A stretch of DNA of 64,000 nucleotides from Candidatus Endomicrobiellum guadaloupense (lineage in GTDB: Bacteria > Elusimicrobiota > Endomicrobiia > Endomicrobiales > Endomicrobiaceae). This document shows, piece after piece, positions 3,001 through 32,217 of this stretch (position 1 is the stretch's first letter; every line of letters starts with the position of its first letter). The notes under the pieces are model-generated. The model saw only the letters and a program-made list of their open reading frames with translations, made no database searches and was not told the DNA's origin. The position numbers and the translations under genes are program-made. The stretch covers positions 35,724-99,723 of the forward strand of contig JAITJN010000037.1 of NCBI GenBank assembly GCA_031278895.1, in the 5' to 3' direction.

Positions 3001-3461
3001 TTTTTGTCTTTGATGTTAGAGAGCCAAGAAGTATCAACATCGCCAAAAGCCCCTTCCATATAGACATTTTTGACGCCATACTTTTTATCAAACAGTTCAA
3101 TGATGTAAGCGATGTTCTTTTGTACGTTAGGGTGAAGGTGTAGGTCTTGGATATTGATGATGATGGTATCGCTGGCAGAGAAGTTGGAGTTAGTAATTTT
3201 GCCTAAAGAGTTTGGAATAAAGAATTCGGACAAGATGTGTTTGAATTGTTGGGTAGAGATGATATTGTGTAGAACTTGAGCAATACTTTGTCCGTACACG
3301 TATGATAGTAGAAAACAATTGACTATTATTAATGCTACTACTTTTGTTTTGGTTAAGGGTTGAAGAGTATTTTTGAGCTGATAAAATCTGTACAAAATTC
3401 TTTTAAGCTTTTCACTAAAAGAAAATAGGAATAACAAGTGGTTTTTCAAGAAATTCTTCAT
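1..3461 (-). CDS. Giant membrane-associated protein of unknown function (C-terminus beyond window edge)
   Basis: Read codon by codon on the minus strand: open from ATG at 3461 (RBS-like gaggggg just upstream) to position 1 with no stop, >=1153 codons. Hydrophobic N-terminal segment (KVVALIIVNCFLLSYVYG), motif TIIINIQDLHLHPNVQKNIAYIIELF..VKNVYMEGAFGDVDTSW, motif VVVTGGFHTQYL, several hydrophobic helices, HExxH (IQHELAHRQFANP). Absent from the ORF track, which lists only short spurious ORFs here. Confidence 0.85.
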   Translation of the reverse strand, partial: MKNFLKNHLLFLFSFSEKLKRILYRFYQLKNTLQPLTKTKVVALIIVNCFLLSYVYGQSIAQVLHNIISTQQFKHILSEFFIPNSLGKITNSNFSASDTIIINIQDLHLHPNVQKNIAYIIELFDKKYGVKNVYMEGAFGDVDTSWLSNIKDKKTKQKIVNNILNTGMLTGPEYYSIISNRPHLIKGLENKSPYLQNLQRFGDILYSQNEISSILSSIDKDILYLRSIYSNKRQLKIESLFKDYHSGKISPKKFYALISNYAQRFGIDIQPIFNKQSGSIEIDNSSYKNITTFIALLQQSDKINYSQASTQLKSLILHLKQTLPYQAFKMITDQSSNFKDIDKLYAFIINFSKQLNIDLSINFPELNKLFNQVELNKNINPISMLDEEERLEDQLSIALATDQGSKEVAFLSWFADEFYNYFSTSITSDNYDWYKQHIKEWKRLYIKYLDNKKLSLLAPYETLVDSFYNVNIDRNQYFFDNLSFLHDSHKLNIHFDSSLSDTEKVIKSLDNSKNISVVVTGGFHTQYLNDMLAKQGISFIVITPTVDDGVELAKQAYHSLAKEQSKILSTTLAALNMSQNDINQRLIGLSDVLVQRGYSTQALSDFLQEIASSLDSDISISLSGGSSKSEPLTLKINDKTYIYNHSDGIFTQQPLLPSTSSQQPLAKSSKTAGLTAMINFISATVSIPFLILIPMMSWALPFMIIPLLIFIPSSIVASYALWQRNTILNAKLTESELVPLQIPATSVNTYIKSKLLLALHEDLYDQVKDIIELKDNIGSGIVMEYDIFNDKININLTLARQLFFDPLANNTINQKLFINFIQHELAHRQFANPENKIRFFIHNNFKWLEELLVSFADLFRAITFKKTMYPQKHVTSISIEEIQRALQNKSKSIVTNSIDRIKRVDNVVKFMLGITISLVVTSCLFSTIPAYSIIISPFIVALVFIIYRIFKTGITNLTFSDVIEFIVVMGLAGLIGYGGKLILATLHDFVSLISSSGAIAMFLSTYRKNEEAQTKVENTKNEINKKLNLITSIKFIVILLLSIPDLLKSLPKYSQKSNTSNDEKIKSDGSRIFVSSLKDIIYWAEKIFPGINLALEILFRTLAKENLIIGFKPKITEAMDIIEILTAIETKYNGVKKVLDLIMKIMNFVLYII

Positions 3462-3549
3462 GAATCCCCCTCTTGACAACATTTTTAAGTTACTTTTTTA
3501 TATTTCGCAATATTTTTTGTCTTTTAAAGATCTGACATTTAGAATTTTA

Positions 3550-5673
3550 TTATATTTTTGAATATTTTTTAAATAGAAAAACAATCATATAAGCAGAAAA
3601 AGTTCCTATCAATGCTCCTACAAGAACATCTGAAGGAAAATGGCTTCCTGTGTAGATTCTATAAAATCCTGAGTAAAAAGCAAGTATTATGTATAAATAC
3701 CAATACTTTTTAACTATTATAAACATAAAAGTACACAAAGAAAATGCTAATTCTGTATGTCCTGATGGAAAAGAGTCTGCATATAATTTTTCATATATAG
3801 TATTAATGTTTCCATCAAATACTTTTAATGGACGAGATCTTTCAAAATAATGTTTTAGAAAATGAACTATTACAGCGCCTACTATCATTACGCTTACCAT
3901 AAGAGCAAGATTTGTCCAGAAGTGATCTTTTTTATTTTTCCAGAGAATAAATATACATATTGTAAGTATTATAATAAAACTTAGATTGAAATTTTTGTCG
4001 TCAAAATAAGAAATAGGAGCAGCAAGAAAGTCTAAATACTTAGACTTTAACCCTGAATTTATAAATTTAAAAATAAAGTGATCAAAATTTAGAAGTTCTT
4101 GTTTGATATCTTTTTTTTGTTTTATAGCTATGGTTGTATAAGAGTCTGGAAGTTTAGATGGATTAAAAGATTTACAATATGTAAAAAAGAAGTTTTTGAT
4201 TTTTTTACCGTTTCTATATACTGGAAATGTTTCAACGTCTGCATATGATGAAAATACATCTCTATATCTAATTTTAGGATCTGAAAAAAAGTAGTCATTG
4301 CAGATATATAGAGCATTTTTATTTTTTAACTTCTCTAAGTCTCTTTGCCAAAAATCATAAGCATCTATTTTGTCACTTATACAAAATACCCTAAGCTCAG
4401 GGATACAAGCTGCAAGTTCACTAGCCAAATAACTCTTATATGTGAATATAAAAGGTCTTTCTTCTTTTGAGTAGGAGTTTACTATTTTTCTTATTTCGTT
4501 TCCTACTTCTTTCCAACCATAAACTTCATTTGTCACGTCAATTCTTTCTGATTCTGGAATGCCGTGTTCTATTTGTTCAATCTTGTCTTTTGGTATAAAC
4601 TTTTCAACAGGGACAACTCCATACAAAACATGTAAAGGAACTATAATAATCATAAATAATGCCAACGCCCAAGCTGTATAAGAATAAAGTTTAAACCATT
4701 TTATATCCCAAAACTTTAAGGTTAGATGCGTAACATATATAGACAACCCCAAATAACCCATTGCAGGCCAATGAGGAAGTATTTCATTAAATGTTGCTAT
4801 TGCATTAAAAAAAACTAAAACAGGTAAAGAGAAGCAAGAAATAACAAGAGCCGTTCTATCATTTTTCTTGTAAGCTTCCTTAATACATAAAAATGCAGCT
4901 ACTATAAATATTAGAAATAATAATGGGGAAATATATCCGGCTTGTGCCCCAATAGACCTGCCAAAAAATATTAAAGAGAATTTAGGTAGAGAACTGCCAA
5001 ATCCATGATTTAACTGAAATCCAAAAGAAGCCCAACTATTTTCTATATTCCACATTATAACTGGCAAAAACATTATGGCAGATAAAATAATTCCAAAGTA
5101 AGGCTCTTTTTTCTTAAACCAGAATCTATGTTTTGGAGAAAAAATAAGAAATAGAGATATTGAGAAAGGTATCAACACTCCATTATATTTAGAAAGCATT
5201 GCCAATCCTGTTGTAATGCCAAGCAAATACCAATAATTTTTATTATTAGTTTCAATTAGAGTGATAAAAATAAGGAGCGATAAAAGCCAGAAGAGTGCAA
5301 GTGGGGAATCTGGAACAGCTATTACAGAACCTAAGAATGAAAATACAGGGAGAACATTTAATAGTAGAACTCCAAAAAATGCTGTTCTTTCATTATAAAG
5401 TTTTTTAGCGCATGTAAAAAATATCCATATTGCAAAGAAGAATATTAATACAGTAGGAAACCTTACAGCAAATTCATTATTTCCAAAAATCAATGTTGAA
5501 GCTTTGATTATATATCCTATTAGAGGTGGATGATCAAAATATGAGAGATCCAAAAATTTGGAATATACCCAATAATGAGCTTCGTCTATTGTTAAGCCAA
5601 TTTTACCTATTATTAAAAGTCTAAGTAGTGTTGAAACTATATTCACAATCCAAAACCATAATTTATAATTCAT
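3550..5673 (-). CDS. Glycosyltransferase family 39 (ArnT/PMT-like) with C-terminal PAP2 phosphatase domain
   Basis: N-term DEAHYWVYSKFLDLSYFDHPPLIGYIIK typical of GT39; C-term KHYFERSRP ... PSGH ... YRIYTGSHFPSD is the PAP2 signature. Confidence 0.88.
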   Translation of the reverse strand: MNYKLWFWIVNIVSTLLRLLIIGKIGLTIDEAHYWVYSKFLDLSYFDHPPLIGYIIKASTLIFGNNEFAVRFPTVLIFFFAIWIFFTCAKKLYNERTAFFGVLLLNVLPVFSFLGSVIAVPDSPLALFWLLSLLIFITLIETNNKNYWYLLGITTGLAMLSKYNGVLIPFSISLFLIFSPKHRFWFKKKEPYFGIILSAIMFLPVIMWNIENSWASFGFQLNHGFGSSLPKFSLIFFGRSIGAQAGYISPLLFLIFIVAAFLCIKEAYKKNDRTALVISCFSLPVLVFFNAIATFNEILPHWPAMGYLGLSIYVTHLTLKFWDIKWFKLYSYTAWALALFMIIIVPLHVLYGVVPVEKFIPKDKIEQIEHGIPESERIDVTNEVYGWKEVGNEIRKIVNSYSKEERPFIFTYKSYLASELAACIPELRVFCISDKIDAYDFWQRDLEKLKNKNALYICNDYFFSDPKIRYRDVFSSYADVETFPVYRNGKKIKNFFFTYCKSFNPSKLPDSYTTIAIKQKKDIKQELLNFDHFIFKFINSGLKSKYLDFLAAPISYFDDKNFNLSFIIILTICIFILWKNKKDHFWTNLALMVSVMIVGAVIVHFLKHYFERSRPLKVFDGNINTIYEKLYADSFPSGHTELAFSLCTFMFIIVKKYWYLYIILAFYSGFYRIYTGSHFPSDVLVGALIGTFSAYMIVFLFKKYSKI

Positions 5674-25903: not shown

Positions 25904-26079
25904 TCTGAATATACTTAACTGCTAGTAATTTTCATTTCAATAACATGATAATCTTCCACTTACCAGATTTGTATCTTAGGGAGCATGAAATGTTCAGTAT
26001 AATACCACAAATAACTAAAATACTCCAGCATCTGTACAAGTCTAAATGTTTTGTTGATAAAGACTATCTCTTTCTTTCA

Positions 26080-26360
26080 TGCGTTTGTCGTAGAGAAAGT
26101 TTTTTTTAGACTTAAAGCAACACAAACAGCGCACATAATAGGACTAAAGTGCAATACAATAAACTTGTGGGCGCAACAAGAAGTTTAGAGAAGGGATGTA
26201 TAAGCAAGAGGTAGAGGAATCTAAAGAGAAGCTAAGAGGAGAAGTAGAGCTAGATGAGAGTTATTTTTGTAGAAGTATGATAAGAGGGTGATAGTTTAAT
26301 TGAGTGAAGAAAGTTTTGGGTTGCATTTGAAAGAATGTGAAAGGAGATATAGAAGAGCAT
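26080..26360 (+). pseudogene. IS1595-like transposase remnant
   Basis: Frame-broken pieces FRLKATQTAHIIGLKCNTINLW and GMYKQEVEESKEKLRGEVELDESYFCRSMIRG; GEVELDESYF is the hallmark of the IS1595/ISXO2 transposase core. Confidence 0.7.
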
Positions 26361-26729
26361 AGAGCAGATGAGGCAAGAATTAGGTATAATCTAATAAGGG
26401 GTTAGCTCTTTGCTACCTTTCTAGTTTAGAGTCGTCATATTATACCTTATAAATTATAATAGAAAGGTTATGTCATGAGAGTTAATCAAAAAATAATGAA
26501 CCGTTCTTTAGATAAGAAAATAAATGTTCTTAAAGATATAGTCACGAAACAAGCTCAGATAAAAGCTTCAAAGATATTGGAAGGTGAATAAAGATATAGC
26601 TTTAGAAAACCAACTATGAGACACTAAAGAAATATTTGAAGACTTATTCATCCATATTTCATTTTCTTTGTCACATTGGTTCTATTTTAGTCGCTTTATA
26701 TCAATTAGCAATATTTAGAGGAGTTACTT

Positions 26730-29700
26730 ATGCCAAGCAATGAATTAGTCTACTCTTTTGATTTGGGTTCCGGAAGTATTGGTGTTTGCGTTAGGAGTGG
26801 CAAAAACATTTTACATTTAGAATCCCTATTAATTGATCCAGATTTTGCTTCAGTAAAAGAAGCATCTATGCGTAGAAGACAAATCCGTACACGCATAGCG
26901 CATAAAGAGAGAGAAGTGGTGGGACAAACAAGCAAAATTAGCAGGTATTGAAGTATTATCAACTGCCCAACCTTCAAAAGAAAATCCAAATCTTAAACCT
27001 GACAAAAGAATGTTAATAGAATTTCTACCACAAGCTTCTAAAGACAAAACAATATACTCTTCTCATTTATTAAGAATAGCTCTTTTGCAAGGCGTAAAAT
27101 TAGAAGGCTGGCAGATCTATAAAGCTATAAGATCTGCAATGCAAAGGAGAGGCTATGATGCACATCTGCCTTGGGCGCAAAGCTTAGACGAGCGAGAGAA
27201 TGTAGATGCTTCAAACAGATATGGTGAAAAACTAAAAGAATTTTTCGCAAACAATCAGAAATATTATTATCCATGCTATTACGAAGCTTTTACACAAGGT
27301 ATTTGGGATCCAGAAAATCCCAAAATACTGACAACTAGGCTCGGAAAAAATCCAAATCCTGCAAGAAACAGAGGCAACAAACCACCTGAAGACAAATGTT
27401 TCCCATCAAGACAGCATGTTGAAGAGGAATTAAGAGTTCTGCTTACAAAAGCAGCAGAATTATTTCCAAAACTTAAAGGTAAAGAAGACTTTGTTATTTA
27501 TGGACCAGCAAAAGAAGCTTATGCTTCATATAATAACAAAAAATATGCTAAATACAGAGGGACTAATTGGGATTTGCAAGGATTATTAGGTCAGAAAGTA
27601 CCAAGATTTGATAATAGAATTATTGCAAAGTGTTGTTTAATAGCACGTTATAATGTTTGTAAAGCAGACAAACAGGTAAATAAAGAAGTTTCTTTCTTGC
27701 TTGCTTTAAAAAATATGAGATATTCTAAAAATCATATAACAAGCATGCAGTTAAATCCACAACAAGTAAATGATATTTTTAAAAGATACACAGAATATCT
27801 TGAGATAGAGAAAAGTAAAGATGGGAATAGTGAGCAAAAAGATAAGACACTTAAAAAAAGAAAAGGCAAAGATAACCCTTTAACAAGAACTTTCTGGAAA
27901 AATTACGTAAATGACTTAGGTGGACAGGTAAACCCTGGCCAACAAGAGATATCAAAACCAAAAGATACCGGCAGAAGCAGGTTTTGTAAACCAGCATTGA
28001 ATATATTGCATAGTTTAATTTTGTTTGGCAAAAATCCACATGATTATTATAAAGAACTTACTGAACAAAATAAAAATATTAACCCTAACAAGGGGCTAGT
28101 GAAAGAGGATTATAAATTTTTACTTAACATGCCAAATGATTGGTATTCCATAAGTATTCAAGATACAAGAGAAGATGATAAAAAATTGTCCCGTCATGAA
28201 GCGGAAAGTAAAATAGTCGAGTATATATCAAAGATAAGCAATAGGGTAGTTCGTCATAGATTATTGATGTTGTTTAAAATATTGAAAGAATTAGACAAAA
28301 AATTTAAAAAAGAATATGGAACACCAGACAAAGTAATTTTTGAAATAGCAAGAGAAGATTTTGTTTGTGAAAATAATAAAAAAGAACGTGCCGACACGGT
28401 AGCAGAATTAAAGGCTTTAGGATTAAGTATAAACGATAAAAATATACTAAAAATGCGGTTAGGTAACCAACAGAAATGGAAAGATATATACGATACATCA
28501 AGTAATAGAGGATTAACAAAAGATATAGAGCAATATGAAATTGATCATATAGTTCCACAGTCTAAAGGTGGCTCTGACTCTTTTTCAAATTTTGTTTTAA
28601 CAAGAAATAGATTCAATCAAGCTAAAGGTGATTTAGCACCTTATGAATGGTTTCAAAAATTAAGAAAAGATGAATGGCAGACTTATGTAAAAAATGTAGC
28701 TGGAATGTTTAAAGGTAAGAAAGACAAGAAAAAAGTAGAATTGTTAATTTCCGATAAAGCAAGCGAATCCGAGAAAAGAAAAACAGATTTGAATGCAACA
28801 TCATATATAGAAAAATCAGCTCAAAAAATAGCAGGTTTGTATTTTGGTTTTGGAATAAACACATTAGGAGACAGAAAGAAAATTTTCTTTTACACAGGTG
28901 GAGAGACTGCCAATGTAAGAAAAAAATTGAACTTAGATAAACTTTTATATTCAAACGAAGAGAAGTTTATAAAAGCAAAATTATCAGGATTAAAAGATAA
29001 AAATAGAGAAAATAAAAAACATCACGCGTTAGACGCGCTTGTTTTAAGTGTTCTTCCTGAAATAAAGACAAAAGTAAAATCCATAGAACAAAAACCAGAT
29101 TATTTCTATGAAGGATTTTGTAAAAAACATTTAAATAATGTTATTTCTAAAACAATAAAACAAAAAACGCCTCAACTTAGAGAGACTATTTATGCTTTAA
29201 GGTATCGTATAGAAGATGGGAAAAAGCACTATTATTTTATATCTCACTTTAACTCTTCAATAGATACTTTTAAATCTATTGAAAGTGCAAGGGGAGCTAC
29301 AGATAAAGATAAAATATTTGATTTAAAAATACAAAATGATTTTAAGAAAAAATTAGAAGAAAAGGGATTGTCTCAAGAATCTTGGGAAAAATGGTTAGAT
29401 AAATACACAGATAATGGTAAAAGAATTAAGAAAATTGCAATTATCGACTCTAAATGTTTTGATGAAAAAGAAGTCTTTAACTCTGATGGAACATTGAGAG
29501 AAGTTATAGGAAAATATGGTAGCAATGGTGTGTCAGGGCAATGGATTAGAGCAGAAAATTTCTATCAAGGACAAATTGTTTATAAAGAAAAAGACAAATG
29601 GAAAGTAGAACCTATTTATGTTTTTGAATCAATGTATAATAAACGTAAACTTTATGAAAACAAATATGATAATGTAAAATTCTTTAAATCACGCCAACTT

Positions 29701-29871
29701 GTTAAATTAGAAAGGTCATATGAAGATATTCCTGATGGTATTTATGAGCTGAAAACATTACGTAGCAACGATTCACACTGTAAGCTTGAAAATATTGATA
29801 ATCAAAAAGAAATAATTAAAAATATTAATTACTTAATAGAAAATTGCGGGATGAGAACTTATGAAAAATAA
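26730..29871 (+). CDS. cas9: Cas9 (type II-C-like, about 1046 aa after repair), single frameshift in the bridge-helix region
   Basis: ORF1 VYSFDLGSGSIGV (RuvC-I) ... MRRRQIRTRIAHKERE; frame then moves +1 at about 26916 to WWDKQAKLAGIEVLSTAQPSKENPNLKPDKRM; KVIFEIARED (RuvC-II); YEIDHIVPQSKGGSDSFSNFVLTRNRFNQAKGD (HNH); KKHHALDALVLSVL (RuvC-III). Followed directly by cas1, cas2. Confidence 0.93.
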
Positions 29872-30791
29872 TGAGTTATCATATAATACACATATTAAAC
29901 CATGCAAGCAGGGTATCTGTTGATAGAGGCTGCCTTGTATGTCATATCCCCGAGAAGTCTCCAAGAAGAGTACCTCTTGAAGATATTCTTGCGGTTATAG
30001 TAGCATCAAAAGGTGTAAGTTTTTCTGGAGATTGTTTATCTGCGTTATTAATCCATAATAGTATTGTTCTGCATTGCGATCACAATTATAAACCAATAGG
30101 CAAAACCGTAGGGTTACACAGAGTAGTGCATAACGAGATTTTAGACCAACAAATTTTTCAAGACATTCCTTTTATGAAAAAAGTCTGGGATAAAATTTTG
30201 CTTGCCAAAATTTCTAATCAAGCATATCTATTAAATTATATAGGTGCTAAGCACAAGCTTTGGGAGTACATAAGATCAGGCAACTTAGATGAAGGCAATG
30301 CTGCAAGACATTATTGGAAGATCTATTTTAAAAATTTTGGTCGTTCTTGTCCATGTTCAAGAACTACAAGAGGCGCACAGGACCCTGTAAATGGTATGTT
30401 AAATTATGGGTATGCAGTTATTTCTTCATTATGTCACCGTTTGTTGTTAGCACATGGTTTTAATACATCAGTAGGTATTTATCATAAATACAGATTTCGT
30501 TCAGATCCGCTCGTTTATGATATTATGGAGCCGCTAAGAACTTTTTGCGATTTTATGTTGTTAAGATTTAGGCAAACAAATTTAAGAAAAAAGATTGATG
30601 AGTGGGTAAAATTTGCAGCAAAAGATATAGTTTTTTCAAAGATAAATATAGATGAAGCAAAAAGTTTGAGTTTCAACCTTGCCATAGACAAATACATAAC
30701 TTCCTTTTCCAATTGCTTTAGAACTAAAACTTTAGATAATCTATACATTCCATCACTTAAAGAAATAACATTTGATTATGAGAAAGAGTAA
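29871..30791 (+). CDS. cas1: CRISPR-associated endonuclease Cas1 (type II)
   Basis: MSYHIIHILNHASRVSVDRGCLVCHIPEKSPRRVPLEDILAVIVASKGVSFSGDCLSALLIHNSIVLHCDHNYKPIG; directly abuts cas9. Confidence 0.95.
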   Translation: MSYHIIHILNHASRVSVDRGCLVCHIPEKSPRRVPLEDILAVIVASKGVSFSGDCLSALLIHNSIVLHCDHNYKPIGKTVGLHRVVHNEILDQQIFQDIPFMKKVWDKILLAKISNQAYLLNYIGAKHKLWEYIRSGNLDEGNAARHYWKIYFKNFGRSCPCSRTTRGAQDPVNGMLNYGYAVISSLCHRLLLAHGFNTSVGIYHKYRFRSDPLVYDIMEPLRTFCDFMLLRFRQTNLRKKIDEWVKFAAKDIVFSKINIDEAKSLSFNLAIDKYITSFSNCFRTKTLDNLYIPSLKEITFDYEKE

Positions 30792-30807: not shown

Positions 30808-31134
30808 ATGGGCTGGCTGCTTATTTTATTTTACTTACCTACAGATACTAAAGAAGAAAGACATCAAGCAACTAAGTTTAGAAACAAACTTCTAGATTTA
30901 GGTTATTTAATGCTTCAGTATTCAGTTTATGCAAGGTGTGCTGTTTCTTTAGATAGAAAGAAAGGATTAATAAATGACATTAAAAAAATAGCACCAACTA
31001 CAGGTAACGTTCAATGCTATTTTATAACAGACAGACAATGGGAAGAATGTATTACAATAACAAAAAATAAAGAAAAAAGTGTACGACAAATTGATTCTGA
31101 AGACAAAATAAACGAGCAACTCCAATTCTGGTAA
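30808..31134 (+). CDS. cas2: CRISPR-associated endoribonuclease Cas2
   Basis: MGWLLILFYLPTDTKEERHQATKFRNKLLDLGYLMLQYSVYARCAVS...GNVQCYFITDRQWEE; true start probably ATG 30808 rather than 30772. Confidence 0.93.
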   Translation: MGWLLILFYLPTDTKEERHQATKFRNKLLDLGYLMLQYSVYARCAVSLDRKKGLINDIKKIAPTTGNVQCYFITDRQWEECITITKNKEKSVRQIDSEDKINEQLQFW

Positions 31135-31154
31135 AAATTGTTAGAGGTCTAACA

Positions 31155-31192
31155 GTTTCAACTTTAGTTAAGGCATGACTAAAAAACTAAAC
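31155..31192 (+). repeat. Solitary CRISPR repeat-like sequence
   Basis: GTTTCAACTTTAGTTAAGGCATGACTAAAAAACTAAAC, 20 nt after cas2 stop; complementary to 31230-31260. Only one copy seen in the window. Confidence 0.5.
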
Positions 31193-31202
31193 TTTTTACG
31201 GA

Positions 31203-31320
31203 GCTAAGAGTGAATCCTATTATAACAAATTTAGTTTTTTAGTCACGTCAAAGTTAGAATCTCAATACGTCACCACACTTAGAAGAGAGAAAGAAATTGG
31301 TAATGGCTTACTTTCAATTG
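31203..31320 (+). ncRNA. Candidate tracrRNA (anti-repeat 31230-31260 plus 3' tail)
   Basis: TTTAGTTTTTTAGTCA (31230-31245) is perfectly complementary to 31176-31191; AAAGTTAGAAT (31250-31260) pairs with GTTTCAACTTT (31155-31165) allowing wobbles. Possible promoter TTTACG-17-TATTAT just upstream; tail contains hairpin AATTG-GTAA-tggc-TTAC-ttt-CAATT. Ends are approximate. Confidence 0.5.
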
Positions 31321-31434
31321 TTAGCATACGTCAAATATATATAATAGCATTTTTCATATGAATTTTAAATAAAGAAAGCATCTTTTATTTTTGCGTGATT
31401 TATTATAAAATCTCTGTGCGAAATAGAGGTTTTT

Positions 31435-32217
31435 ATGAAAAACTTTATAGAATTAAGAAATATTTCTGTTCTAAGGGATGACCTAAGAATTTTAGATGAT
31501 GTAACACTTAATATAAAAATAGGTGAGAATGTGGCAATAATAGGTCCAAATGGATCTGGCAAGTCTACATTCATAAAATTAATTATGCGCTCAATTTATC
31601 CATCATATACTGGATATGGAGTTTGCAAGTTGTTTGGGCGTGATGTATGGAATGTGTCTGAACTTCGTAGCATGCTTGGTATTGTTACAGATGATCTCCA
31701 ATATAATTTCCATAACGAGATAACTGGGATTGAGTGTGTATTATCAGGCTTTTTTTCAAGTGTTGGAATAGGCAAAAATCATAATGTTACAAAAGCAATG
31801 ATAGGAAAAGCTGAAGAGACAATAGATTTAATGGGAGTATCATTTTTAAAAGACAAAAAGCTTGTAACTATGTCATCAGGAGAAGCAAGAAGGTTTTTGA
31901 TAGCGAGAGCTCTTGTAAATAATCCGAAAGTTTTAATTTTAGATGAACCTTCAAATAGTTTGGATATATATTCATCTTTAAGCCTTCATAAAACTATAAG
32001 AAAGATTGTTGCTACAGGAGCTAATATAATACTTGTAACGCATTTAGTATCTGATATAATTCCTGAGATCGACAGATTTGTACTATTTAAAAACGGCAAA
32101 ATTTTTGCAGATGGAAAAAGAGAGAGCATTTTTAGTGGCAGCAAACTTTCTTCTCTTTTTGGAATTAATGTAGAAATTAGCGAAAATAAAGGATTCTGCA
32201 GTATTACGACGATATAG
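31435..32217 (+). CDS. ABC transporter ATP-binding protein
   Basis: Walker A GPNGSGKST, signature MSSGEARRFLIARALVNNPKVLILDEP. Confidence 0.93.
   Translation: MKNFIELRNISVLRDDLRILDDVTLNIKIGENVAIIGPNGSGKSTFIKLIMRSIYPSYTGYGVCKLFGRDVWNVSELRSMLGIVTDDLQYNFHNEITGIECVLSGFFSSVGIGKNHNVTKAMIGKAEETIDLMGVSFLKDKKLVTMSSGEARRFLIARALVNNPKVLILDEPSNSLDIYSSLSLHKTIRKIVATGANIILVTHLVSDIIPEIDRFVLFKNGKIFADGKRESIFSGSKLSSLFGINVEISENKGFCSITTI

Follow-up and report, generated by a model that had tools for sequence, protein, structure and literature searches.

Behind the cas genes of this locus lie 300 bp that hold no gene, and within them two complementary segments that resemble a CRISPR repeat and its anti-repeat, with no array beside them. 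The locus raises the question of whether these segments form an unusual guide RNA, serve an array kept elsewhere, stem from a mobile element, or are what is left of an ordinary CRISPR-Cas9 system. Positions refer to the window, that is, the whole stretch of 64,000 nucleotides that was analysed; its genome (G000) is a draft of 1.30 Mb in 66 contigs, about 94% complete. With high probability, the two segments belong to a decaying type II-C-like Endomicrobia CRISPR-Cas9 locus: one is the anti-repeat of a tracrRNA read on the minus strand, the other the final repeat of the array, which lies beside the leader.

The genes are arranged in the order cas9 (split), cas1, cas2, gene-free interval and ABC ATPase gene, with an HD-domain gene upstream; cas1 and cas2 are accompanied by neither csn2 nor cas4 in the locus. 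The ATPase gene has its own promoter region (31381–31413), which is conserved in two further genomes (G005 and G013). The coding features are the following:

26730–26951, plus strand: 5′ fragment of cas9 with the RuvC-I motif SFDLGSGSIG and the Arg-rich bridge helix, ending at a frameshift (about 26906–26920)
27010–29871, plus strand: remaining cas9, out of frame with the 5′ fragment; 953 aa when counted from the first ATG, with HNH and RuvC-III
29871–30791, plus strand: cas1 (306 aa), the sole Cas1 of its own genome (about 94% complete)
30811–31134, plus strand: cas2, with Tyr at a position where 14 relatives all have Asp
31435–32217, plus strand: ABC transporter ATPase, an unrelated neighbour

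The Cas1 encoded in the window is closest to those of termite-gut Endomicrobia, namely Ca. Endomicrobium embiratermitis (79%, locus L038) and Ca. Endomicrobiellum porotermitis (77%, L039), and further close relatives were found at loci L040–L044. The record of one of these (L040, JAISUA010000184.1, Cas1 75% identical) is titled Clostridioides sp., yet carries a CRISPR locus of the Endomicrobia type, which suggests misbinning or transfer.

The cas9 fragment was read by three-frame translation against the intact Cas9 proteins of L038, L039 and L042. The frame shifts after the residues KERE, and about 60 initial codons (RuvC-I and bridge helix) are out of frame with the remainder. The part at 27010–29871 is 59–63% identical to full-length relatives, matches HNH_4, RuvC_III and Csn1 (Pfam/NCBIfam), and has Cas9 entries, for example 9ar4 and 6jdq, as its closest solved structures by sequence. 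A Cas9 with HNH and RuvC, as belongs to type II-C, is accordingly present, but with RuvC-I split off by the frameshift. The NCBIfam Cas9d model scored 681.8 bits on the same part (cut-off 375). The definition of type II-D includes cas4 in the adaptation module (PMC12669027), and there is no cas4 among the neighbours; II-C-like is therefore the safer label in spite of the Cas9d assignment, and the model may extend to II-C-like Cas9s of Endomicrobia. The dN/dS values relative to L038 were about 0.13 for cas9, 0.07 for cas1 and 0.06 for cas2, all of them rough at dS above 1; being low, they indicate that the three genes were constrained for most of their history. Either the decay is recent, or the cas9 frameshift is an assembly error, as a lone frameshift in assembled metagenome data may be; the remaining lesions described below are independent of it.

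In the gene-free interval, an earlier note, made from the letters of the sequence, had pointed to a perfect 16-bp complement between 31176–31191 and 31230–31245. This inverted repeat is indeed present and is the only perfect one of 16 bp with a loop of at most 80 nt in the 64-kb window; one such inverted repeat was obtained in 100 dinucleotide shuffles of the window. A second stem, proposed between 31155–31165 and 31250–31260, shows partial complementarity, but has no counterpart in the relatives, in which the base of the duplex is formed by GTT of the repeat paired with AAC of the tracrRNA; the second stem is probably fortuitous. By comparison with the relatives, the interval was divided as follows:

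31134–31212, minus strand: remnant of the tracrRNA, whose length would be about 80 nt with a start at the repeat-borne promoter
31139–31154, minus strand: short hairpin TGTTAGAccTCTAACA followed by a U-run, standing in for a longer conserved hairpin (alignment and fold)
31172–31197, minus strand: tracrRNA anti-repeat, with covarying pairing to the array repeat
31198–31205, strand not applicable: site of the missing tracrRNA promoter
31206–31218, strand not applicable: leader end AAGAGTGAATCCT, which adjoins the array in relatives
31219–31254, minus strand: single remaining CRISPR repeat, ACTTTGACGTGACTAAAAAACTAAATTTGTTATAAT in minus sense, assigned by homology to the arrays of L038–L042
31255–31284, strand not applicable: spacer-length segment of 30 nt, either the last spacer or the far flank of the array
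31290–31336, minus strand: IS110-like remnant (family tentative), corresponding to the region upstream of a transposase (88–94% match)

The relatives L038–L042, all Endomicrobia from termite guts, carry cas9-cas1-cas2, a tracrRNA, a leader with the same end and an array of identical 36-nt repeats. Their repeat (ATTATAACAAATTCAATTTTTTAGTACCGTCAGAAC) matches 31219–31254, the leader end before it is likewise conserved, and leader and repeat together are 83–91% identical between the window and the relatives. The arrays hold 4 repeats in L038 (at a contig end), 23 each in L040 and L042, and 3 in L041; that of L039 has 44 and extends onto a second contig (L125), which adds 32 and has a spacer in common with it. 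Spacers are 30 nt long in 119 of 122 cases. At least two repeats with spacers, as required of an array, are thus found in the relatives and not in the window, and the window, having one repeat only, is to be regarded as a decayed member of the group and not as a working one. The segment 31270–31283 resembles part of the sequence downstream of the L041 array, but over too small a length to be informative.

This comparison settles the roles of the two arms. The earlier note rightly recognised, downstream of cas2, the anti-repeat of a tracrRNA together with one CRISPR repeat, and rightly considered the array lost; it had interchanged the two parts, however, as the arm at 31219–31254 is the homologue of the array repeats and that at 31172–31197 the anti-repeat. 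Its strand has to be corrected as well. Read in minus sense, the relatives' repeat begins with GTTTTG and ends with TGTTATAAT, which is the form known from type II-C, with a promoter in each repeat; the position of TGTTATAAT and the order of the tracrRNA parts agree with promoter-bearing repeats in an array that reads toward cas2, as a matter of pattern. In type II-C arrays, for example of Campylobacter, the promoter is borne by the repeats, acquisition takes place at the last repeat, and the oldest repeat is often mutated within its first 15 nt (PMC12080349). Both RNAs of the window are read on the minus strand, on which the normal tracrRNA order (anti-repeat, then hairpin) results. A tracrRNA on the plus strand was considered and rejected: the conserved hairpin would then sit 5′ of the anti-repeat, contrary to the usual type II order, and a repeat read in that direction would not show the GTTTTG...TATAAT form of II-C. 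The promoter that had been proposed in the loop (TTTACG-17-TATTAT) does exist as a pattern on the plus strand, the strand opposite to both RNAs, but its TATTAT is what the repeat begins with when read in the reverse direction. The sensible candidate in that place is the minus-strand extended −10 element TGTTATAAT, which forms the 3′ end of the remaining repeat.

Covariation of the duplex was evaluated in five loci (the window, L038, L039, L040 and L042). Over 22 bp, 99.1% of the cells are paired and 7 pairs are changed on both sides; none of 500 shuffles attained these pairing, double-change or covariation values, and sliding of the duplex by one column lowered the pairing to 52–56%, a control that somewhat favours the structure because the latter was read off the same sequences. 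The set comprises only five sequences, and in one of these three bases at a deletion were masked. Two of the double changes are found in no locus but the window (pair 10–58, G–C to U–A; pair 23–45, G–C to A–U), so selection must have kept the duplex after the lineage of the window had split from its relatives. Judged from this sequence record, the duplex is a maintained RNA feature, and the anti-repeat covaries with the repeat as is characteristic of a II-C tracrRNA.

The remnant tracrRNA is homologous to those of L038–L043 and shares with them the conserved core GCCTTAACTAAA..CCTCTA. In the relatives, a long hairpin follows whose two arms change together between L038, L039, L042 and L043 (by inspection). 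In the window its 3′ arm is deleted in the alignment, and a short hairpin of 6 bp is folded instead. A strict terminator pattern was found neither in the window nor in the relatives; termination is no more than suggested by the hairpin and U-run. Between leader and anti-repeat, L038, L039, L040 and L042 have the promoter pattern TTGCAA-16/17-TAAAAT or TATAAT on the minus strand. Because TTGCAA reads the same on both strands, promoter patterns appear on the plus strand as well. The pattern is absent from the window, where the repeat contains the sole minus-strand promoter pattern immediately upstream of the tracrRNA. The repeat itself begins with AC instead of GT in the RNA sense, and the GTT:AAC base of the duplex is consequently lost.

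Transcription and function, as deduced from homology, layout, covariation and lesions, would be as follows. In intact relatives, the promoter in each repeat would drive a short spacer-repeat crRNA toward cas2, and the tracrRNA would be made from its own promoter (TTGCAA-17-TAAAAT) between leader and anti-repeat; the tracrRNA would pair with the repeat, and the duplex would guide Cas9. In the window today, transcription of any tracrRNA would begin from the promoter of the one repeat left, with neither a crRNA array nor an intact Cas9 for the RNA to serve. The array may have been reduced to one repeat by recombination between its outermost repeats, leaving the leader, one repeat and the far flank; alternatively, a deletion associated with the neighbouring insertion element may have removed it. 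The change at the 5′ end of the repeat left in the window agrees with the mutation of oldest repeats in II-C arrays.

The insertion-element remnant begins about one spacer length past the repeat. The segment 31290–31336 matches G000:C11:28564–28610 and G000:C54:8044–8086 (88–94%) as well as contigs C46 and C28 of G036. The repeated segment lies just upstream of the start of a transposase (MPKDLYSNFIGIDVSKHKLDI) that is IS110-like by eye, the transposase copies in the same genome being broken; the IS110 assignment of the short transposase fragment was not borne out by Pfam. Further degraded transposase-like sequence, by eye an IS1595/ISXO2 remnant, was seen upstream of cas9 (26000–26450).

A second reduced locus was observed in a genome of the same genus (L122, G016:C4:8000–13854). 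At about 3360–3840 of it, a cas9 fragment with stops is directly joined to a leader (with TTGCAA) and a single repeat, and cas1, cas2 and the tracrRNA do not lie between the fragment and the leader. As this locus, too, consists of leader plus one repeat, collapse to one repeat has probably occurred more than once in the group.

Other explanations were weighed against decay. The palindrome of a miniature mobile element (MITE), or a chance palindrome, unrelated to CRISPR, would be in keeping with the insertion-element remnant next to the inverted repeat. A MITE would have been indicated by copies at many non-cas loci, as the earlier note had foreseen; instead, the inverted repeat occurs just once in the genome, is homologous to the relatives' arrays and covaries, which leaves this explanation practically no probability, and it was dismissed. 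An array kept elsewhere and used in trans by the cas locus of the window, which the earlier note had envisaged, would be favoured by the draft state of the assembly. No second repeat is visible up to the ABC gene, as had been stated, and none was detected by DNA and pattern searches for this repeat in the rest of the available genome (about 94% complete), whereas the same kind of search yields dozens of repeats, in real arrays, in the relatives. The chance that an array lies far away on a contig missing from the assembly is slim.

It is also very unlikely that leader and repeat are kept as a minimal or naive array into which Cas1–Cas2 could regain spacers. The retained parts are precisely the leader and the leader-adjacent repeat, at which II-C systems acquire spacers (PMC12080349), Cas1 is open and conserved, and the decayed locus of G016 retains the same two parts; against this, Cas2 has lost its invariant Asp and the outer end of the repeat, an integration site, is altered. 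Acquisition of spacers in type II systems requires Cas9 and tracrRNA, and both are damaged here. A natural single guide or long-form tracrRNA, as suggested in the earlier note, would require a minus-strand transcript that enters from the right, pairs with itself and acts through Cas9 by guiding or repressing, in the manner of the long tracrRNA of Streptococcus pyogenes. On that strand the geometry allows it: spacer-length segment, repeat, leader, anti-repeat and hairpin follow one another in single-guide order, the cis fold is strong (z −5.5), and the loop is shorter than in the relatives because the promoter segment is gone. The cas9 of this assembly is frameshifted after RuvC-I and the bridge helix, however, the duplex base is lost and the tracrRNA hairpin truncated, the normal upstream promoter, that of the next repeat, is absent (weak pattern matches remain), and nothing else in the genome matches the 30-nt segment; such a guide is very improbable. 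There is equally little to be expected of the fused unit of repeat, leader and anti-repeat, its loop shortened by the deletion of the tracrRNA promoter, surviving as a single-guide-like or regulatory RNA, which would be transcribed from the internal promoter of the last repeat or from a start further to the right. A system active until recently would also agree with two features, the open frames of cas1 and cas2 and the perfectly paired 16-bp core of the duplex. Taken as a whole, the interpretation in the earlier note is partly supported; decay of a II-C-like locus remains the preferred reading, and the locus is probably dead.

A survey of CRISPR-Cas in Endomicrobia reported such systems in 15 genomes, 11 of them of type II-C (PMC11257099). 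The II-C loci L038–L042 share with the window cas9-cas1-cas2, the tracrRNA and leader directly after cas2, and the repeat of 36 nt whose 3′ end carries a promoter; the window differs by its one repeat, frameshifted cas9, truncated and promoterless tracrRNA, and the Asp-to-Tyr change in Cas2. Arrays of the Campylobacter type (PMC12080349) resemble it in the repeat-borne promoter, acquisition at the last repeat and 5′-end changes as in oldest repeats, whereas the window has no array left to serve. The long-form tracrRNA of S. pyogenes (tracr-L; PMC11417352) is comparable in that a repeat-like segment of the window could likewise fold in cis onto the anti-repeat; a single guide in the window would be possible in its geometry, but the cas9 there is broken in the assembly. 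Pseudogenised CRISPR systems have been found in the termite-gut Desulfovibrio Rs-N31 (PMC7608387).

The window shares decay of a defence locus in a reduced-genome symbiont with Rs-N31 and with Ca. Endomicrobium trichonymphae, in which decay of defence systems was reportedly described by Izawa and co-workers in 2016; it differs in belonging to another lineage and in that the decay of the RNA parts could be traced by comparison. The otherwise ordinary locus offers a snapshot of a CRISPR-Cas9 system dying in a symbiont, with constraint still apparent in the protein genes but the array, the promoter and hairpin of the tracrRNA, and the cas9 frame already broken. The sequence pair, together with the other damage, points to the demise of an ordinary immune system in a symbiont of termite guts and not to a novel type of guide RNA, and the locus provides a covariation-backed reading of the Endomicrobia tracrRNA, leader and repeat. 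The locus would escape CRISPR finders that require several repeats.

Repeats of this family were also seen in G005, a genome in which no Cas9 was found. A solo Endomicrobia repeat without an array around it lies at about 1998–2033 of L124 (G005:C28), one base different from the copy at positions 1–37 of L123 (G005:C35). The latter contig starts with the repeat, fused to the 3′ end of proS; this junction is probably the edge of an unassembled array.
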